A model generated the notes under the pieces. The model had not been told where the DNA came from, made no database searches, and saw only the letters and a program-made list of their open reading frames with translations. Positions 32,766 through 42,815 of a stretch of 64,000 bases of DNA are shown here, piece after piece (position 1 is the stretch's first letter; each line of letters opens with the position of its first letter). The translations under genes and the position numbers were made by a program. Source of the stretch: Sulfurovum sp. UBA12169 (GTDB taxonomy: Bacteria > Campylobacterota > Campylobacteria > Campylobacterales > Sulfurovaceae). The stretch is taken from the NCBI GenBank assembly GCA_002742845.1, contig DLUH01000005.1:321707-385706 (forward strand), written 5' to 3'.

Positions 32766-33344
32766 ATGGATAAAGAAAAAGAATTTGAAGAGGCAGTTAC
32801 TAAAATCCTTGAGCTTTTAGGCGAAGATCCCCAAAGAGAAGGATTGCTCAAAACACCAAACCGTGTAGTTAAGGCATTGCAATTTTTAACAGAAGGGTAC
32901 CATCAGGATCCCAAAGAGATCTTAAATCAAGCGCTCTTTTCCACAAGCAATGACGAGATGGTACTGGTTCGCGACATTGAATTTTACTCAATGTGTGAAC
33001 ACCATATGCTTCCGATCATAGGCCGCGTGCATGTAGCCTATATTCCCGATGGCCAAGTTGTTGGGCTTTCGAAAATCCCCCGCATCGTCAATGTCTATGC
33101 CAGACGCTTGCAGATACAAGAGCAGATGACTGAGCAGATCGCTGACGCTATTTTGGAGACCATCAAGCCAAAAGGTGTTGCCGTAGTAGTTCATGCGCGT
33201 CATATGTGCATGGAGATGAGAGGCGTACAGAAAATTAACTCCACAACTGTAAGTTCGGCCCTTCGAGGTCTTTTCAAAAAAGACGAGCGCACCAGAAGCG
33301 AGTTTTATAATCTTATCAACACGCCCACTCCTTCCAATTTTTAA
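32766..33344 (+). CDS. folE: GTP cyclohydrolase I
   Basis: A 192-residue FolE of normal length. The zinc-binding and catalytic block [10 protein letters not shown] (about residue 77) and the second His-Cys region [13 protein letters not shown] (about 140) are complete. It converts GTP to dihydroneopterin triphosphate for folate and queuosine synthesis. It follows mutY after 17 bases. folE near tig/clpP/def is a conserved Campylobacterota arrangement. Confidence 0.97.
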
Positions 33345-33519
33345 TCATACGTTTTCTTCTTGGGATTGACTTTGTTGATCCCGAATTTCATTTTACTCCA
33401 AGCAAACACTTTTTGATTGAGGCAAATCAAGCTTATTTAATTTAATTGGGAGTATAATCGTCCTCTTTTATTTTTCATTTTTATGTTATTTTAAGAAAAA
33501 TAGCGTAAGATGCAAGAAA

Positions 33520-33560
33520 TTAATTCGGACAAAATTTGTCTTAATTAAAAATAGACAAAA
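33520..33560 (+). promoter_or_regulatory. 29-bp palindromic operator candidate upstream of nifS
   Basis: A nearly perfect dyad (33520-33548, centre 33534): left arm TTAATTCGGACAAA and right arm TTTGTCTTAATTAA match at 12 of 14 positions. A third half-site, AGACAAAA, follows at 33553-33560. A possible -10 (TACTAT/TATAGT, 33565-33573) lies directly downstream. The position suggests repressor control, perhaps by an Rrf2/IscR-type or Fur-type factor, of the Fe-S assembly operon. The rest of the 292-base folE-nifS gap holds no gene. Confidence 0.6.
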
Positions 33561-33595
33561 CTTTTACTATAGTCCAAATCATAGTAAGAGGAATG

Positions 33596-33619
33596 AGGGG
33601 TGGGTTTCTACTCACCCCT
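33596..33619 (+). promoter_or_regulatory. 5'-UTR hairpin before nifS
   Basis: AGGGGTGGGT (33596-33605) pairs with ACTCACCCCT (33610-33619), loop TTCT, one G-U pair. The 10-bp GC-rich stem stands out in an AT-rich leader and ends 7 bases before the AAAGG ribosome site of nifS. It may stabilise the message or tune translation. Confidence 0.5.
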
Positions 33620-33621
33620 AA

Positions 33622-34827
<1,206 letters not shown>

Positions 34828-34904
34828 TCTAGATCATGGCAGACGGGTCACACTTAAAGATAAATCTTTTGGCAAAGAGTGAAAATATCAAGACAGGGTC
34901 GACT

Positions 34905-34930
34905 AAAAAAAGAGGCCTGGGCCTTTTTAA
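34905..34930 (+). promoter_or_regulatory. attenuator-like hairpin between nifS and nifU
   Basis: AAAAAG-AG-GCC pairs with GGC-CTTTTT around a two- or three-base loop, followed by T-rich sequence (34926-34928 and on). It looks like a weak intrinsic terminator placed inside the nifSU operon and could reduce nifU transcription relative to nifS. The 127-base gap contains no gene. Confidence 0.4.
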
Positions 34931-34954
34931 AGAAGAAAAAATAAAGGAAAAATC

Positions 34955-35926
34955 ATGGGAATGGACAGTTTAATCGGCGGAACCATCTGGTCTGAATACA
35001 GTCAAAAAGTGACAGACTCAATGAATAACCCAACACACAAGGGAGAAATCACCCAGGAGCAGGCAGATGCGATGGGAGCAAAGCTTATCGTAGCAGATTT
35101 TGGTGCTGAGAGTTGCGGGGATGCGGTAAGACTTTACTGGGCGGTTGATCCCAAAACCGACATCATTCTTGATGCCAAATTTAAAAGTTTTGGATGCGGC
35201 ACAGCAATTGCCAGCTCTAATACAATGGTAGAGCTATGCATAGGTAAAACCGTTGATGAGGCGGTAAAAATCACAAACATTGATGTAGAAAGCGCGATGA
35301 GAGATACGCCGGATGTTCCTGCCGTACCGCCTCAGAAAATGCACTGTTCGGTTATGGCCTATGATGTAATCAAAAAAGCGGCTGCGCTCTATAAGGGTGT
35401 AGATATGGCGAGCTTTGAAAACGAAATTATCGTCTGCGAATGCGCCCGCGTCAGTCTCTCTACTCTCAGAGAAGTCATTCGCCTTAACGATCTTACGACT
35501 GTTGAGCAGATCACAGATTATACCAAAGCGGGGGCTTTTTGCAAATCATGTATCAGACCCGGGGGGCATGAAGCAAAAGATATCTATCTCGTTGACTTGC
35601 TCGAAGAGTATGAAAAAGAAAAAATGGCTAAGGCAGCGGATGCTTCTGCGAGCGGGGTAGCTATTGATTTTGCTCAAATGACAGTCGTTCAAAAATTAAA
35701 AGCTGTGGATAAAGTAATTGATACAAATATCCGCCAAATGCTCATTATGGACGGCGGGGATATGGAGATTTTGGACATCAAAGAAAACGGTGCGCACTTT
35801 GATATTTATATCAGATATCTCGGTGCATGCAGCGGCTGTGCGAGTTCATCCACGGGTACGCTTTTTGCGATAGAAAATATTCTTAGAGAGAAACTTGACG
35901 AAAATATACGGGTTCTTCCTATTTAA
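34955..35926 (+). CDS. nifU: Fe-S cluster scaffold NifU
   Basis: A 323-residue three-domain scaffold. N-terminal IscU-like domain with Cys in AESCGD, FGCGTA and HCSVM; central BFD-like 2Fe-2S domain with CECARVS and FCKSCIRPGG; C-terminal NifU domain with the CSGCASS cluster motif. Full-length NifU of this kind builds clusters with NifS. AAAGGA lies upstream. All expected Cys motifs are present. Confidence 0.95.
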   Translation: MGMDSLIGGTIWSEYSQKVTDSMNNPTHKGEITQEQADAMGAKLIVADFGAESCGDAVRLYWAVDPKTDIILDAKFKSFGCGTAIASSNTMVELCIGKTVDEAVKITNIDVESAMRDTPDVPAVPPQKMHCSVMAYDVIKKAAALYKGVDMASFENEIIVCECARVSLSTLREVIRLNDLTTVEQITDYTKAGAFCKSCIRPGGHEAKDIYLVDLLEEYEKEKMAKAADASASGVAIDFAQMTVVQKLKAVDKVIDTNIRQMLIMDGGDMEILDIKENGAHFDIYIRYLGACSGCASSSTGTLFAIENILREKLDENIRVLPI

Positions 35927-35961: not shown

Positions 35962-36177
35962 CTACCTTCTAAAAAGTCTTAGTATGCTTCTTGCAATGAC
36001 AAACGGAATATAAATAATCAGGGTAAAAACCAGCGGATGCATCGCGCCTATACCGTATGCTCCCGCTGTCGGCAATGCCATAATATGCTCAATAGGATGA
36101 TCTATCCACTCTTTAAAATGCATCCCGACCGCCAAAAATAAAAATATCCCGATAAATATGCTTAATTCTTTTTTCAT
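35962..36177 (-). CDS. small two-helix membrane protein, unknown
   Basis: A 71-residue protein with two hydrophobic segments (about 4-19 and 44-63) and a basic C-terminus. Between them are GMHFKEW and HPIEHIMALPTAGAYG. ATG 36177 has AAGGAG at 5 bases; a GTG at 36180 is too close to the site. Not recognised. It follows the DCCP-type operon on the same strand, but 160 bases away. Confidence 0.6.
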   Translation of the reverse strand: MKKELSIFIGIFLFLAVGMHFKEWIDHPIEHIMALPTAGAYGIGAMHPLVFTLIIYIPFVIARSILRLFRR

Positions 36178-36232
36178 CACAACTCCTTGAAAACAATCCC
36201 GTAATCATATCGAAAAATATACTTATAAAAGC

Positions 36233-36340: not shown

Positions 36341-37159
36341 CTAAAACTCACGCTCAATTTCCGGCATACTTCTAAAAGCATCGCATGCCAAAACGGCAGC
36401 ACCGAAAGAGGTCGTAATTTGCGGATATTTGGGTACAAATATCTTTTTTCCGAGTTCATTTTCGATGGCATGAACCAGTCCGGCATTCAAAGCCGGTCCG
36501 CCGTCAAAATAGACAGTTTCTTTGATGCCGACCCTTTTAACCAGCTTCACGATTCTTTTGGCAATAGAATAATGAACTCCGGCCACGATATCCTGGACAC
36601 TGTGGTTGCTTCCCAGCAGTCCGATGATCTCCGATTCGGCAAAAACTGCACAGGTGCTGCTGATCGAGAGGGGAGTTCCTGTTGATTTAAAATGATAGTC
36701 GCTAAGCTCATCAACACCTATCTCCAAATTCATTGCCACCACATCCAAAAATTTTCCGGTTCCTGCGGCACAACGGTCATTCATCGCGAAATTTACCACA
36801 TTGCCTTCATTGTCCAGCGAAATTGCTTTGCTGTCTTGTCCTCCGATATTGATGATTGTTTTTATCTCTCCGTATTCTCTTGCCGCCTCTTGTGCCCCTA
36901 TCGCGTTGGCAGTAATTTCGCTGATGTTTTCATCTGCCTCTTTAAACAGTTTTCTGCCGTATCCGGTTGCGACAGTATATGCGATTTTATCCCGGCTGAT
37001 GTTCAATTCATCCAGCAAACTTTGCAAAGTTTCTTTGGCATATTTATAAAACATGCTCCCGCTCGCATTGATTTTAAATCCGACCAAACGTTTATTTTCA
37101 TCCGTCACGGAAACCTTGATCGCCGTTGAGCCGATATCTATCCCTACAAAATAGTTCAC
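36341..37159 (-). CDS. BadF/HgdC-type ATPase activator (acyl-CoA dehydratase activase / DCCP reductase)
   Basis: A 272-residue ASKHA-fold ATPase. The phosphate-1 loop GIDIGSTAIK is at residue 6, the family's INIGGQDSKAI near 103, the Cys-bearing NDRCAAGTGKF near 127, SSTCAVFAESE near 165, and GGPALNAG in phosphate-2. The two Cys lie where the homodimeric 4Fe-4S cluster of HgdC/DCCP-reductase is held. It would drive electrons uphill, with ATP hydrolysis, onto the partner encoded just upstream. GTG start overlaps the upstream stop (GTGA). Confidence 0.88.
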   Translation of the reverse strand: MNYFVGIDIGSTAIKVSVTDENKRLVGFKINASGSMFYKYAKETLQSLLDELNISRDKIAYTVATGYGRKLFKEADENISEITANAIGAQEAAREYGEIKTIINIGGQDSKAISLDNEGNVVNFAMNDRCAAGTGKFLDVVAMNLEIGVDELSDYHFKSTGTPLSISSTCAVFAESEIIGLLGSNHSVQDIVAGVHYSIAKRIVKLVKRVGIKETVYFDGGPALNAGLVHAIENELGKKIFVPKYPQITTSFGAAVLACDAFRSMPEIEREF

Positions 37160-38433
37160 TTTTTCATTCTCCGTCTATTTTTTAACGATTCCACAAATGC
37201 TTCCACCCTTGTTGTAAGCTGCCCCTGCTGCGAGGGACTGTAATCACTTTCGATATATAAAATCGGAATCCCATTTTTTTCCATTGCTGCAAGAACACTT
37301 CTTTGCTCCATTTCATACACTTGGCATCCGGCAAATGCCTGATAAATCACTCCATCGGCGTTGTAACTCTTAAAAAGATCAACTATTCTTCTGATTCTGT
37401 CATCATTTTTTGAAAAAATAGGACAAGTACACCCCTTTAGATATTTGTCTGCTATCGAATCAATCATATCATTTAAAAACCACTCATCAACACTTACCCT
37501 GTCATTAAACATCCTGTTTGAACTGCACGTTTCATCCGCAACGATAATGGCATCTGACTGTTCAACAATCAAAGGAATTTTATAGTTTGGAAAGATAGGA
37601 GGTGAGCCCGTATAAACAATTCTCGGACTCATTTTGCCGCCGGCATGCATTTGATTTGCGGCTCTTTGTTCTGTTTCTTCTATAAGCTTTTCAACAGCCT
37701 CTATCCAGTTGTCTATTTTGTCAAAGAAAAAAGCATTGGTAACCATAAACATATCTTTGCCTAAAATAGGAACGGTATTGTTTTTTCTAAAATCATTGAG
37801 TCTATGATAGAGCGTTTGGGCATATCCTATTTTTCGGATGGAGGCTTTAAGATTTTTCTTTGTTAGTTTCTTGCCAAGATTTTTGGACAGATCGCTGCTA
37901 AATCTTCGTATACTTCTTCTCCAGTATTCCCTGCTTTCTTCACTCTCTTTTGTTCTTGGAAAATCTACATCGACTACCTCATAACCAAAATTTTCTATGA
38001 TGGCTCCCGCTTTGGTTTTTTGATCACAGGTCGTTGGAGAGAAAATGATATCGGGTTTATCGCTGAAATTTTCCGAAGCCAAATGGCCCACTGTTGCTTT
38101 TACGAGCGGGCAGGATTTCGAAGGCATCAAATCACTTCCTATCTCATCATCCGTATAAAACCCATTGCAAAGTCTTAAAGGAACAGCATCGAGCGCATAG
38201 ATGATCTCAGAAGGTATCTGAATGCACATGGTGCCGATTTTCACTTTATCGGCATGCAGTGCTTCTTGCTTGCAATACACTTTTTCAAATAAGTCATAAA
38301 AATAATTCATCGCTTTTGGCGGTTCTTTAAACTCTTCCCTAATGATATTGAGTACTTTTACCGCTTCCATGGCCTTATGTCTGTTTTGTTTTTGCTTGGG
38401 TGTTTCTATTGTATGTTTTACATTATCAATCAT
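37156..38433 (-). CDS. HgdB-like double-cubane-cluster-type reductase
   Basis: A 425-residue protein of the HgdB/FldC family (2-hydroxyacyl-CoA dehydratase D component). Cys at about 70, 89, 108 (PSKSCPLVK), 136 (SPTTCDQKT), 303 (ADETCSSNR), 335 and 337 (GCTCPI) and 370 (FAGCQ) are enough for a multi-Fe cluster. Because only one such subunit is encoded, not an HgdA/HgdB pair, the homodimeric double-cubane-cluster protein (DCCP) type is favoured. Substrate unknown. ATG 38433 has GGAG at 8 bases and overlaps the upstream gene by 8 bases; the open frame extends to 38472. Confidence 0.82.
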   Translation of the reverse strand: MIDNVKHTIETPKQKQNRHKAMEAVKVLNIIREEFKEPPKAMNYFYDLFEKVYCKQEALHADKVKIGTMCIQIPSEIIYALDAVPLRLCNGFYTDDEIGSDLMPSKSCPLVKATVGHLASENFSDKPDIIFSPTTCDQKTKAGAIIENFGYEVVDVDFPRTKESEESREYWRRSIRRFSSDLSKNLGKKLTKKNLKASIRKIGYAQTLYHRLNDFRKNNTVPILGKDMFMVTNAFFFDKIDNWIEAVEKLIEETEQRAANQMHAGGKMSPRIVYTGSPPIFPNYKIPLIVEQSDAIIVADETCSSNRMFNDRVSVDEWFLNDMIDSIADKYLKGCTCPIFSKNDDRIRRIVDLFKSYNADGVIYQAFAGCQVYEMEQRSVLAAMEKNGIPILYIESDYSPSQQGQLTTRVEAFVESLKNRRRMKK

Positions 38434-39412
38434 TATTCTTCTCCGGCTTTTCCATGCCCATTCTTTTCGCAAAGCCTTCTTTTGTGGAACTAAATACCCT
38501 CATATTCAAAATATCCACATGCAAAGCATCATCTTCGGGACACGCAGCCACACATTTCATACAAAACATGCAATCATCCCTTAGGATATTTGTACTTATG
38601 ACATCATCGGCGATATCTTTGATCTGCATGTCGCACACCCTATAGCAATCTCCGCATTTAGTACATTTGTCTCCGTCCTTTCTAAGCTTCAAAAGCGACA
38701 GATCAGACAACGTATAATGCAGTGCGCTCATAGGACAAAAAAAGCAAAAAAATCTTTTTTTTATAAAACTTCCCACAAAAAATATTGCGGCGAACAAAAC
38801 CCCGATTGTCGTTAGGATCATGGAAGTAACCGTCGAAAAATCGATTTTCCATTGGGAAAAATCTCCTGAAAACATCGGGGAGATGACGCGCGCAGGGCAT
38901 ATCTGGCAAAAAGCGCCCGACCATTCCCTTCCCAAGACCCCGATCCCCATCAGCAAAGGGATCACAATGACGATGGCCAAAAAAATGTATTTGATTTTAG
39001 AGAGCTTTTCAAACTGCGTCTGAGAGTAGGTGCCGTATCTGATCCCGAGTTTTTTTCTCAATGCCGTTATCCAGTCTTGCAAGGTGCCAAACGGGCACAC
39101 ATAGCCGCACCAGGCTTTATTTAAAAAGACAAACCAGGCGATAAAAGTCAGCAATCCCACAAGCACCGAAATAGCCGCAGCCCCAAAAAGCACATTTGCA
39201 GGCATGGCAAGCTGATGCTGCAAAGGCATAAAGTAGCAGGTCGCTCCCGTTTCGCTATTGTACGGACAGGCAAATATCGGGATGCTTGAGCCGAAATCTA
39301 TCAAAACATATCCGCCGTACACAAAGAGTACAAACATGGACAGCTGTATCCAAAATCTTACTTTGTTTAGGGGCATAGTGTTGATCATACGTCTGATTTT
39401 ATTTTTCATCAT
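38426..39412 (-). CDS. NapH/NosR-type membrane polyferredoxin
   Basis: About 328 residues, four to five hydrophobic helices. It has the membrane Cys motifs CGYVCPFG and CFFCPMS and two cytoplasmic 4Fe-4S motifs (CTKCGDCYRVC and CMFCMKCVAACP). The plan is that of NapH/CcoG/NosR proteins, which move electrons between the quinol pool and redox partners. It lies between the larger polyferredoxin and the DCCP-like gene, overlapping both. Start ATG 39412 has GAGGT at 5 bases; a second ATG follows at 39409. Confidence 0.85.
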   Translation of the reverse strand: MMKNKIRRMINTMPLNKVRFWIQLSMFVLFVYGGYVLIDFGSSIPIFACPYNSETGATCYFMPLQHQLAMPANVLFGAAAISVLVGLLTFIAWFVFLNKAWCGYVCPFGTLQDWITALRKKLGIRYGTYSQTQFEKLSKIKYIFLAIVIVIPLLMGIGVLGREWSGAFCQICPARVISPMFSGDFSQWKIDFSTVTSMILTTIGVLFAAIFFVGSFIKKRFFCFFCPMSALHYTLSDLSLLKLRKDGDKCTKCGDCYRVCDMQIKDIADDVISTNILRDDCMFCMKCVAACPEDDALHVDILNMRVFSSTKEGFAKRMGMEKPEKNND

Positions 39413-41786
39413 ATCGAACCTCAGAAAAGGGTTTTGTTCTGTTTCTTCTAAACCTGTATGCAATAAAAGATGCCAGCAAGAGTGTCAACATAGCGATTAT
39501 CAAGCCATCTTTGTACGATTTGTATTCATTTTCGTTTGGATAAAAAGAAAGAGGGTATGTTAGTGTATATTTTGTTTTGCTATAATTGACACCGTTTAAA
39601 ATACCGCTGCTGTTATCATCATATGACAAAGAAATTAGCAGCATCCCTTTGTGTCTTTTGTCAAATTCTGACCATTTTGGAAAATAATCTTTTATGATAT
39701 TAAATGCTGCGATTCCCTCTTTGTCTGTCTTCAAATCTTTTGTCCACCCTGTATCTACAGATACTTTTATTTCGGCATTGGCCAACGGCTTGTTATTCAA
39801 AAGGGCTTTAAACCTTAAAAGATCTCCGCTTGAATGGGTATAGAAAAAACTGTCCTCTTTTTTATCTCTTACTCTGATCAGATCTATTTTATTTTTATCT
39901 CCAATAAACGGTTGGCTTTTGCGCGGCTCATATACATCCGCAAGCCCATGGTTTCCGTTTAAAAACTCCAACTTTGCGCTTTTGTAATGCAATGTATCTT
40001 CTTCAACTTTTGAACTATTGAAAAATAGATTATAATATCCGTTATGCGGCATTTTAAAACTATAAGAAGCACAATTATTCTGTATGGCGGTGCTGAGTGT
40101 TGCCTCTTTATTAAAAGTATCATAGAGCGATAATTCTCCGTCCGGTTTTCCGATACACGTATTTTGTCCAAAATTTTCACCGTAAACCAGCCATACTTTT
40201 TGGGTCGGCACTGCCATAGGATTGCCGCCGTGCATTCCTCCCCCATGAGAACCCTGGGAGTTGGCTCCGGGATCACTGCAGGTAAAATAGATCAAATCGG
40301 TTGTTTTAATCATACGTTTAAAATCCAAAACCTCACTGTTGTCATCTGCGGGTTGTGATGCGGATTTTACAAAAGAAGGTCTTTGCGCTATGCTTTGCCC
40401 GCCCATATGATGGGAATGACCTGCTGCTTTGACACCATACACGTTAAATACATATCCTCGGTAAATATTGATGCCTATAAAAAATATCACCAGCAATGAA
40501 GCAAAAAAATAGCCGAATATTTTTCTCATTCTTGTACTATCGATCAGCTTTAATCTTTTATACAGAAGTATCAAAGTCCAAACCACACCGATCCATCGCA
40601 GAAATCCAAAATAGTGAAGCCAGGCATCACCTCTTTTGGCCAGCGGCGCGACATCGGCAGCAAACCCGAAAGCCTGCGCAAATCCTTGGATAAGTGTCGC
40701 ATAGTCTTTTATAAAAAACATCTCCAGAGTATGTCCCAAAGACCCCAAAATGAAAAGCGGCGCAAAAGCATATCCTAAAGTCGAAAAAGTGGTATTAAAA
40801 TCTTTTTTAAGCACTAGGGATGCAAGCCACAAACCGAATACCGCAAAAAATACGCTCAAGACTATCGCATAAATAAAAGCAAATCCGACACCGTATTCAC
40901 TCATTCCTAAAAGAACAGCTGTTTTATTCCATATCATATCTTGCGCTATAGCGCTTCGCTCCAATCCATGTGCAAACGTCATAGAAACAGGTATAGCCGC
41001 CAAAATCAAAATAAATGCCCAAACCTCAGCATTGAGAGCTTTGAATTTTTTTTCCAGTATGTGTGCGGGCTTTGTCAATGTAAACTTTACCGCCTCGCAA
41101 GCGTTTGCACACTCCATACACAAAGTACAGTCATCGGTATGGTTTTTTGCGGCAAACGAAAAAGGCTTGAGATGATACGGGCACGAAGAAGCGCATTCAA
41201 AAGTTGTACACTCCTTGCAACTCTCCGTATAGGTCTCCAGTTTGGTAAAAGAGAGTTTATCATACGCTCTGCACATTGTCCCGATAGGACAGATATATTT
41301 ACAATAGCTCATATCTTTGTACATATAATAAACAACAAATGCAACCGCGGTCATACCGGCAAACAAACCGGCTGTCCCAAGCGGGCTTGTTAAAAAGTCA
41401 GGGAACAAATAATAGGTTCCCCACCATCCGAAAATCAATAAAAAAATTCCTATATACCTGTTTTGCATCCATTTTGGCATCGTTTTTTTTAAACCCAAAG
41501 AGGTAATATATTTGCCCAAAAACCCATGCGGACAGATCCCGCAAAATATTCTTCCGAATGTCGGAAGCGTCAACAGCATAAAGAGCGGCCAAAACAAAAC
41601 CCAAAAAACGGCGCCGGTAAAAATATTCTCTTTGGCGGGGTTCATAAACCCATAAAAAACGGCATAAAAAAACAAGAGCGCAACAGCGATCCTAAGCCCC
41701 AATAAAAATTTCTTATTTTTAAACACAAATCCCAAAATGGGCCTGTTGAAAATATCATTTTTGTCTCTTTTTACAAAATTAACCAT
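39399..41786 (-). CDS. membrane polyferredoxin fused to a periplasmic His-rich and DUF4198-like region
   Basis: A 795-residue fusion. Residues 25-270 are a NapH/CcoG-like membrane polyferredoxin (CGICPHG at 82-88, CKYICPIG at 162-169, clusters at C190/193/198/202 and C220/223/226/230). Residues 300-445 carry further membrane helices. Two His/Met-rich motifs (HSHHMGG at 457-463; SHGGGMHGG at 513-521) could bind Cu or Ni. Residues about 600-750 resemble a DUF4198/carboxypeptidase-regulatory Ig-like domain (KPLANAEIKV, TDKEGIAAF), ending in a C-terminal membrane anchor. AAAGG ribosome site. Confidence 0.75.
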   Translation of the reverse strand: MVNFVKRDKNDIFNRPILGFVFKNKKFLLGLRIAVALLFFYAVFYGFMNPAKENIFTGAVFWVLFWPLFMLLTLPTFGRIFCGICPHGFLGKYITSLGLKKTMPKWMQNRYIGIFLLIFGWWGTYYLFPDFLTSPLGTAGLFAGMTAVAFVVYYMYKDMSYCKYICPIGTMCRAYDKLSFTKLETYTESCKECTTFECASSCPYHLKPFSFAAKNHTDDCTLCMECANACEAVKFTLTKPAHILEKKFKALNAEVWAFILILAAIPVSMTFAHGLERSAIAQDMIWNKTAVLLGMSEYGVGFAFIYAIVLSVFFAVFGLWLASLVLKKDFNTTFSTLGYAFAPLFILGSLGHTLEMFFIKDYATLIQGFAQAFGFAADVAPLAKRGDAWLHYFGFLRWIGVVWTLILLYKRLKLIDSTRMRKIFGYFFASLLVIFFIGINIYRGYVFNVYGVKAAGHSHHMGGQSIAQRPSFVKSASQPADDNSEVLDFKRMIKTTDLIYFTCSDPGANSQGSHGGGMHGGNPMAVPTQKVWLVYGENFGQNTCIGKPDGELSLYDTFNKEATLSTAIQNNCASYSFKMPHNGYYNLFFNSSKVEEDTLHYKSAKLEFLNGNHGLADVYEPRKSQPFIGDKNKIDLIRVRDKKEDSFFYTHSSGDLLRFKALLNNKPLANAEIKVSVDTGWTKDLKTDKEGIAAFNIIKDYFPKWSEFDKRHKGMLLISLSYDDNSSGILNGVNYSKTKYTLTYPLSFYPNENEYKSYKDGLIIAMLTLLLASFIAYRFRRNRTKPFSEVRYDEK

Positions 41787-41796
41787 TCTTTGCCTT

Positions 41797-42459
41797 TCAA
41801 AGTATGAGGTGGCCGTTGAGTATTAAAACTCCGGTGATAAATAAAAGCAGCGCAGCTGCGACCTCAATCATTTTTACATAGGTTCTAAACTCCCTCAGCA
41901 GTCCCCTGATGATATTGGATAGAAAAAATCCGTAGAATAAAAAAGGGATCAGCGCCGCTCCGACTCCAAAAGATATCCCCATACCCGCAGCATTTGCTAG
42001 TGTTTCGCTGCTTGCGGCCAGTGCGACAAGAGTTAGGACGGGTGTGCACGGGTTTAACGCGACCATTGCACCGATTCCAAACAGTCCAAACCTACTTGCG
42101 GAGCGTTTAACCCCAATTGGGGGAGCCAAAGAGCAGCTTTTTTTATTTTTACGAAAAATCCCATAGAGCATAAAAAGCCCCATCATCATCGTAAATATCC
42201 CCAGTATCAACTGAAATATAGTATTGTCATCCAATATCGCTTTGATCAAGCCTGCACTGCTTAGGGCAACAACAGAGATCATTGTGTATGAAAAAATTCT
42301 TCCCAAGCTAAACGGCAACACTACGCCTATGGATTGTTTTACGGTAGCGGAATCATTGACCAAAAACGGGCTCAAAAAAGGCATACACGTAAACATGCAT
42401 GCCGTACTGCCGTAAGACAATCCTATAATAAACAGCGAAAAGTATGAAAACGTCTCCAC
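41797..42459 (-). CDS. DsbD/CcdA-like (TauE/SafE-type) membrane protein
   Basis: A 220-residue protein with six or so helices. Cys21 and Cys25 lie in the first helix (TACMFTCMP), and Cys138 in NPCTPVLTL is the second; the paired Cys in helices with Pro are the hallmark of the DsbD-beta/CcdA thiol conduit, also annotated as sulfite exporter TauE/SafE. It would pass reducing equivalents across the inner membrane. GTG start with AAGAG upstream. First gene of the operon, 10 bases before the polyferredoxin. Confidence 0.75.
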   Translation of the reverse strand: METFSYFSLFIIGLSYGSTACMFTCMPFLSPFLVNDSATVKQSIGVVLPFSLGRIFSYTMISVVALSSAGLIKAILDDNTIFQLILGIFTMMMGLFMLYGIFRKNKKSCSLAPPIGVKRSASRFGLFGIGAMVALNPCTPVLTLVALAASSETLANAAGMGISFGVGAALIPFLFYGFFLSNIIRGLLREFRTYVKMIEVAAALLLFITGVLILNGHLIL

Positions 42460-42815
42460 TTTTATCTCTTACTGTTTCTATTCATATGTTAAATCCAATA
42501 CACTATCCTCTATTCGGACCTGCCGCAATTTCCGCAACTTTCAACATCTAAAATTTGTAAAGCCTGATTGTTTTACATTTACCGTTGCCCCAGATTAGAC
42601 ATGCATTATTTCCAAAAAATGTTAATTATCTGTTAAGCGAAAGGGGGATTTAAAATATAAAAAATTATAGAATTTAATTATAAAAATGATGCTATAATCA
42701 TTTGAAATAAAAGTAGGGCTAATTTACTAGACGTGTTTTTGATCTCAAGATCGCCTGAATAAAGAGCGTGCGGGAGAGTGTTTTTCATAAAGTGGAGTTG
42801 GCAAAAAAGGGCATA
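42460..42815. promoter_or_regulatory. divergent promoter region, DCCP operon and c-di-GMP gene
   Basis: A 356-base region without a convincing gene. A TATAAT lies on the plus strand at 42693-42698, and minus-strand TATAAT boxes at 42664-42669 and 42677-42682 face the DCCP operon. The minus-strand leader towards 42459 is thus about 200 nt, unusually long. It contains a short frame ending in SCGNCGRSE but with no start codon. A GATCTC-AAGATC-like dyad lies near 42741-42752. Confidence 0.45.

Follow-up and report, generated by a model that had tools for sequence, protein, structure and literature searches.

A DCCP-like reductase operon with a shared upstream repeat in Sulfurovum and its relatives, a candidate part of a TonB-linked metal-acquisition system

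Among the described systems that most resemble the operon discussed here are DCCP, the double-cubane cluster protein, and its reductase DCCP-R, whose solved structures (6eno, 7yyl and 7yzm) are presumably from Carboxydothermus. The biological function of DCCP was stated as unknown in a 2025 paper (PMC11971306). In Bordetella pertussis, copper starvation induces the CruR-CrtA-CrpH operon, with a TonB-dependent copper transporter (CrtA) and a putative inner-membrane copper reductase of the PepSY_TM type (CrpH), a system tied to haem-copper oxidases (PMC13038864). NapH-like membrane Fe-S proteins also occur in extracytosolic NapH-like and PepSY/DUF4198 systems, in which DUF4198 has been linked to metal reduction (PMC8238504), and the cupric reductase CcoG is a membrane protein with ferredoxin-type [4Fe-4S] motifs that has been linked to the copper supply of cbb3 oxidase (PMC13038864, PMC8267372). 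Here we describe an operon of five minus-strand genes in a 64,000-nucleotide stretch of Sulfurovum sp. UBA12169 (Campylobacterota; contig DLUH01000005.1, positions 321,707 to 385,706), referred to below as the window. The operon joins a DCCP-like reductase and its ATPase to membrane redox proteins, and may form part of a system that acquires a metal through a TonB-dependent receptor. Its features, in window coordinates, are as follows.

42620..42636, minus strand: direct repeat TTAACA-N5-TTAACA, exact match, proposed response-regulator site
41797..42459, minus strand: DsbD_2-type membrane protein (PF13386, 69.5 bits; alignment of 25)
39399..41786, minus strand: polyferredoxin 1, with a NapH-like Fe-S membrane part, a Yip1-like membrane block, a periplasmic metal-type domain and a C-terminal anchor
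39537..40319, minus strand: periplasmic beta domain of polyferredoxin 1, about residues 490-750, predicted Zcp/DUF4198 fold (Foldseek)
38426..39412, minus strand: polyferredoxin 2, NapH-like, with Cys-rich membrane motifs and two [4Fe-4S] ferredoxin motifs
37156..38433, minus strand: HgdB/DCCP-like reductase, 425 amino acids (PF06050, NF040772 and fold)
36341..37159, minus strand: BadF/HgdC-type ATPase, or archerase (TIGR00241, 4eht)

The tight packing that the original prediction, made from the letters of the window, had described is confirmed: a 10-base gap separates the DsbD_2 gene from that of polyferredoxin 1, which overlaps polyferredoxin 2 (ATG at 39412, end at 38426) by 14 bases, followed by overlaps of 8 bases with the HgdB-like gene (ATG at 38433, end at 37156) and of 4 bases with the ATPase gene (GTG at 37159, end at 36341). 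The names it gave to the genes agree with their Pfam and NCBIfam matches.

The HgdB-like protein resembles DCCP in fold, in cysteines and in being the product of a single HGD-D gene with an adjoining ATPase gene. It matches PF06050 (HGD-D) with 315.9 bits, its best solved relatives by sequence are the DCCP chains 7yyl and 6eno (E about 1e-62; 4e-62 for 6eno), and its AlphaFold model (pLDDT 85.4) is most similar to 7yzm, 6eno and 7yyl (TM 0.86-0.87, with about 31% identity to DCCP), ahead of benzoyl-CoA reductase and 2-hydroxyisocaproyl-CoA dehydratase subunits. Eight of its nine cysteines are invariant in 31 relatives, the ninth (C54) nearly so, and eight of the nine align with cysteines of DCCP; C70, C108, C136, C303, C337 and C370 are both invariant (31/31) and aligned. 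These six are candidate [8Fe-9S] ligands, deduced from the DCCP alignment and the description of BzdN, and the protein may carry a double-cubane cluster. The original prediction of a double-cubane-type reductase with at least six well-placed cysteines is supported by the DCCP-type fold (TM 0.87 to 7yzm/6eno) and by a cysteine set that aligns with that of the double-cubane family. It had named as evidence against itself either neighbours that vary randomly between related genomes, or a misfitting cysteine set together with an HgdA partner encoded elsewhere, and we found neither. The 1.86-Mb genome holds one PF06050 match and no second HGD-D subunit, unlike a 2-hydroxyacyl-CoA dehydratase (HgdAB/HadBC), which has two different ones.

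The protein differs from DCCP in several respects. It scores 337.2 bits against the DCCP equivalog model NF040772, under the cut-off of 350, and its operon holds polyferredoxins and a DsbD_2 protein and is associated with a receptor. A 100/100 branch divides a 34-row tree into the operon proteins (22 rows) and the others (12 rows), and a long branch separates the operon clade from the DCCPs of canonical type in Campylobacterota. A protein of this canonical kind, which the phylum also has, reaches 460 bits against DCCP, compared with 215 bits for the window protein. Because of the sub-cut-off score and the tree split, we place the HgdB-like protein by sequence in a DCCP-like sister clade, and not in DCCP itself. 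At one canonical-type locus, the DCCP and ATPase pair adjoins a TusA/YedF-like protein, named by eye (L045:7268-7858; L numbers denote loci and G numbers genomes, G000 being that of the window). The ATPase of the operon matches PF01869 (180.5 bits), TIGR00241 (232.7 bits) and 4eht (E 1.4e-62), and its cysteines C130 and C170 are both kept in 57 of 57 loci. A second archerase-like gene in the genome encodes a 1153-amino-acid protein with two PF01869 matches in one frame (L065:6313-9774, G000:C5).

Homologues of the HgdB-like protein were found at E 1e-20 in 41 of 249 genomes of the phylum. Ten of these, the window genome included, stand apart, the nine others being 60-77% identical to the window protein and the rest about 28-33%. 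The clade is patchy: within the genus of the window genome 1 of 5 genomes carries it, and within the family 2 of 15. Among named genomes, the nearest are Sulfurovum metagenome-assembled genomes (MAGs), whose HgdB-like protein is 90-91% identical. A scan of 84,980 species genomes, queried with peptides of this clade so that more distant relatives elsewhere could escape it, yielded 62 loci; apart from one Petrimonas contig, possibly mis-binned, and one 'bacterium', every label was Campylobacterota or one of its genera. Counts over these named loci take only those with sufficient flanking DNA (56 for the NapH-like gene, 60 for the ATPase and 45 for the upstream genes), and they are not independent: they include related genomes, some MAGs with two loci, the seemingly near-identical L167 and L173, and apparent shared contigs (L134/G186, L146/G200 and L175/G139).

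With these limits, the gene order is strongly conserved. The NapH-like gene adjoins the HgdB-like gene in 56 of 56 loci, HgdB directly following the polyferredoxin, and the ATPase gene adjoins it in 57 of 60, the operon thus being more than a chance arrangement. An ATPase is missing nearby in L125, L144 and L152; the MAGs of the latter two, judged by accession, each carry another HgdB locus with an ATPase (L147 and L180). Further upstream, 45 of 45 loci have a polyferredoxin 1 or DUF4198-type gene, 43 a DsbD_2 gene and 42 a TonB-dependent receptor. The nine close relatives agree: NapH-like, polyferredoxin 1-type (only its C-terminal part in L040) and ATPase genes are present in all and DsbD_2 in eight, with a TonB-dependent receptor upstream in 9/9 and ExbB, ExbD or TonB-type genes in four. 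Matches to NapH-like, polyferredoxin 1 and DsbD_2 proteins were found in none of 11 canonical-type DCCP loci. The check proposed with the original prediction, a search for conserved NapH-like and CcdA-like neighbours, therefore came out in its favour, the linkage to membrane redox proteins being kept and the neighbours not random. In the window and its two nearest relatives the operon has no adjacent receptor; in the window genome a homologue that shares 52-65% identity with the receptors of the operons stands alone at G000:C1:332104-334305.

The membrane part also occurs by itself. The membrane half of polyferredoxin 1 is present in 14 further genomes that lack the HgdB clade, and of 14 such loci inspected, ten have a receptor beside it and five have ExbB/ExbD/TonB genes. 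Three loci found through the receptor (L119-L121) combine it with DsbD_2 and a short protein resembling DUF4198, and two of the three also have a NapH match; in L248 a receptor preceded by the upstream repeat stands beside a PepSY_TM protein; L116 and L118 yielded no rows in this map of the wider operon family. Because polyferredoxin 1-type and DsbD_2/DUF4198-like operons with receptors occur without HgdB and the ATPase, comparison of these loci marks the latter two as an addition to a TonB-linked membrane redox system.

Both polyferredoxins are NapH-like, as had been predicted, with Fer4_5 in each and dicluster ferredoxin domains in the second, at scores under the 213.05-bit cut-off of the NapH model TIGR02163 (81.2 bits for polyferredoxin 2, 30.7 for polyferredoxin 1). 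Unlike CcoG, they have no CcoG model among the NCBIfam matches listed (for polyferredoxin 2, 25 of 27 matches). Pfam found neither an FMN-binding domain nor a PepSY domain in the five operon proteins; the operon therefore differs from the extracytosolic NapH-like and PepSY/DUF4198 systems in having no FMN-binding domain and an added DCCP-like module, and from CruR-CrtA-CrpH in having NapH-like polyferredoxins where the latter has a PepSY_TM reductase, with HgdB and the ATPase not named for that system. A sequence search of polyferredoxin 1 in the PDB returned chance matches only. In its structural model (mean pLDDT 70.2), residues of about 490-750 form a mostly confident beta domain, for which Foldseek gave Zcp as the best PDB match (9mhn, 9mhl and 9mhm, E about 1e-9, TMt 0.65-0.68; for 9mhn, E 1.6e-9 and TMt 0.68), the entry titles naming bound Co, Zn or Cu, followed by the Ni-bound DUF4198 protein 9gcb (E 2.8e-5). 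The periplasmic end of polyferredoxin 1 is thus modelled with a fold like that of metal-binding Zcp/DUF4198 proteins. The original prediction had noticed neither this domain nor the receptor partner nor the upstream repeat. Against PF10670 (DUF4198) the window protein scores 24.1 bits, under the cut-off of 34; among 31 relatives, 21 have a DUF4198 match (E 0.001) and eight a NosL copper-chaperone domain, for which the window protein itself has no match. Hydropathy and charge place this domain in the periplasm and the Fe-S loops of both polyferredoxins in the cytoplasm, and in 27 of 31 members the stretch with which the periplasmic part opens has more His and Met than the remainder.

The DsbD_2-type protein exceeds the PF13386 cut-off of 24.9 bits, and C21, C25, C109 and C138 are invariant in its alignment. 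Its family fits the predicted DsbD/CcdA-like protein. A role as a thiol conduit is not required, since the Cys pattern also aligns with a protein in the nos cluster of the same genome, which we take to be COG2836-like.

A short regulatory element may connect the operon with other genes. An exact TTAACA-N5-TTAACA lies 177 bp before the first operon gene. The motif was found de novo by word-pair counting, the word pair occurring in 46 of 57 receptor-operon upstream regions compared with 27 of 230 controls. (Open reading frames were chosen greedily by length, and shuffles were mononucleotide.) With at most one mismatch, it stands before 46 of 53 receptors of the operon set, which also counts the window, L061 and second receptors at loci already represented, compared with 9 of 1060 shuffles. 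At operon loci it also precedes response regulators (7/9), DsbD (6/10), ExbB (6/9), TonB (1/5), NosL genes (2/2) and copper-type receptors (3/3), 'copper-type' meaning, for the own-genome and L246 proteins, that TIGR01778 is the best NCBIfam match at a sub-cut-off score, and, for the others, homology to the own-genome protein. The background is 20/230 for other genes and 0/108 for genes near the other DCCP kind. Its position before regulator genes and its direct-repeat form suggest a candidate site for an OmpR-type response regulator. The distance to the start codon is bimodal, at about 55-75 bp or 160-200 bp. A riboswitch in the 180-bp leader was considered and rejected, Rfam giving a sub-threshold Spot 42 match (24.3 bits; gathering threshold 80).

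Copper-type receptors gave 62 matches in 61 genomes across the phylum; 30 of these loci were examined and 28 have the repeat. It is also present in 11 of 29 NosL loci, compared with 6% of shuffles. The window genome has seven exact copies, at the operon, the receptor homologue, TonB, the copper-type receptor and a cytochrome cd1-type gene, between the COG2836-like gene and NosZ, and, without a sensible target, near gyrA. Seven other operon genomes have 36 exact copies as against 7 control matches, and 14 of 24 inspected loci with exact sites have plausible targets: a response regulator and kinase, NosL, NosZ, copper-type receptors, ccoN, COG2836-like, ExbB, efflux, a receptor with PepSY, and cytochrome genes. 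Some further observations concern this set of genes. The window genome has two NosZ genes (L207, in G000:C4, and G000:C1:229461-231254), and two NosL proteins are encoded in the C4 nos cluster together with an OmpR-type regulator and a kinase. Paired proteins of about 464 and 440 amino acids with C-terminal cytochrome c domains occur in L255 (4424-7137), L131, L133, L136 and L120, with the repeat upstream in the first four; no named family beyond the cytochrome domain was found for them.

In the reading that we favour, the operon supplies the inner-membrane and cytoplasmic components of a system for TonB-dependent acquisition and reductive processing of a metal complex, most likely of copper for cbb3 oxidase and NosZ; we regard the chances of this reading being right or wrong as evenly balanced. 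A metal-handling context is indicated because of the receptor, the metal-binding-type periplasmic domain and the repeat common to copper-type receptors, NosL, NosZ and cbb3 genes, and among metals copper appears the likeliest; the copper-starvation operon of Bordetella offers a precedent (PMC13038864). The receptor, here encoded apart, would admit the complex to the periplasm, where the Zcp/DUF4198-like domain of polyferredoxin 1 would bind it; the two polyferredoxins would carry electrons across the membrane, and the DsbD_2 protein might move thiol electrons or metal. In the cytoplasm, the ATPase would drive electrons onto the double cubane of an HgdB-like homodimer, which would reduce the imported complex or its ligand at low potential, while an OmpR-type response regulator would switch transcription at the repeat. 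Gene content, linkage, clade, folds and the shared repeat come from the computations above, whereas the cluster, the metal, the regulator, the substrate and the direction of electron flow are inferred. We prefer cytoplasmic reduction of the complex or ligand because known family members act as terminal or storage clusters (PMC11971306).

Several observations weigh against this reading. Reducing Cu(II) requires no low-potential step driven by ATP, and copper alone therefore leaves the DCCP-like module unexplained; L119-L121 show that related operons do without HgdB and the ATPase. The tie between repeat and copper rests on sequence comparison: the copper-type receptors score 185.3 bits (own genome) and 199.7 bits (L246) against TIGR01778, still their best model, far from its cut-off of 472.45, and the operon receptor family scores best with siderophore or haem models. 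At one mismatch the window genome has 20 sites compared with 19 for a reversed-pattern control, which is no excess; one of its sites serves a haem cd1-type enzyme, of a kind not known for copper; and 10 of the 24 inspected exact-site loci have no plausible target. NosZ occurs in 6 of the 10 operon genomes, compared with 70 of the 239 others; this is suggestive only, and we dropped co-occurrence as a tight link.

The receptor scores would suit the same architecture working on another metal, whether iron as siderophore or haem, or nickel, cobalt or zinc, with the membrane and DCCP-like parts reducing an imported chelate of that metal. Caulobacter DUF4198 proteins are strongly iron- and Fur-regulated (PMC3751524), PepSY/DUF4198 clusters have been linked to iron reduction (PMC8238504), and Zcp binds Zn and Co besides Cu, going by entry titles. 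However, the shared repeat follows copper-type receptors, NosL, NosZ and cbb3 genes, and a Fur box is not enriched upstream (the best scores of 65 targets resemble those of 265 controls and shuffles, as scored with a consensus), so that we rejected iron control through Fur and consider another metal rather unlikely.

The repeat sites at NosZ and at the cd1 nitrite-reductase-like gene of the window genome could instead reflect a response to nitrogen oxides or anaerobic respiration, in which the regulator senses NO, redox state or oxygen, the enzyme reduces a small nitrogen compound and the receptor supplies a cofactor. Such a response might recall CrdRS of H. pylori, tied to both copper and nitrosative stress (PMC9449129), and DCCP does reduce azide and hydrazine (PMC11971306). 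We judge it unlikely: NosZ is missing from four of the ten operon genomes, a gaseous or freely diffusing substrate needs neither a TonB receptor nor a metal-binding-type domain, and reducing N-oxides at the cost of ATP would waste energy.

It is improbable, in our view, that electrons are driven outward, the ATPase and HgdB-like protein energizing them and passing them to the polyferredoxins, which would reduce a periplasmic metal complex. The apparent topology (cytoplasmic Fe-S loops, periplasmic metal-type domain) would suit this arrangement, as would HgdB's constant place right after the polyferredoxin, but known DCCP-family proteins are terminal or storage clusters and not donors to membrane proteins (PMC11971306). 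The original proposal, in which a stand-alone cytoplasmic enzyme takes electrons from quinol or thiol to reduce a small nitrogen or sulfur molecule and has no part in uptake, is very improbable: the membrane redox neighbours are real and the laboratory substrates of DCCP are small molecules (PMC11971306), but the receptor upstream in 42 of 45 loci, the metal-type periplasmic domain and the shared metal/respiration repeat point to TonB-linked metal handling. Tetrapyrrole activation as in MCR activation was set aside, since that system, as described, has an ABC-type ATPase and different Fe-S proteins.

Two sets of neighbours adjoin the operon. About 160 bp beyond the ATPase gene, and in its orientation, lies a gene for a 72-amino-acid membrane-type protein with only a weak DUF3975 match (35962-36180), and the opposite strand carries GTP cyclohydrolase-, nifS- and nifU-like genes, identified by eye (32766-35926). 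The nifS/nifU genes were rejected as members of the system; they are not near the operon in maps of nine relatives.

If the operon does serve metal acquisition, the next question is what an ATP-driven reductase would do there. We speculate that the HgdB-like enzyme might free the metal by destroying its ligand in an ATP-driven reduction: copper bound by a pi-acceptor or triple-bond ligand (an isonitrile-type chalkophore, cyanide or similar) would enter through the TonB receptor and, once the double cubane had reduced that ligand, would be released for NosZ and cbb3 oxidase. The idea, which we regard as quite improbable, is a chemical inference from the likeness of such ligands to acetylene and azide, both of which DCCP reduces. 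If true, ligand destruction would give a DCCP-type enzyme a physiological role and would be a new way to strip a metallophore.

The components of the operon are known; their combination and the repeat were not found in the literature searched, which returned no paper on either and mostly did not extend to subscription papers. What emerges is a separate DCCP-like clade that, in several families of one phylum, goes together with a TonB-dependent system and with a short candidate regulatory site also found at genes for copper-type receptors and copper respiratory enzymes. With the repeat, Campylobacterota gain a candidate copper and respiration regulon that would include the N2O reductase genes, and the question of what DCCP-type proteins do becomes directly testable, through the inducing metal or signal, the defect of a mutant and the substrate of the enzyme.

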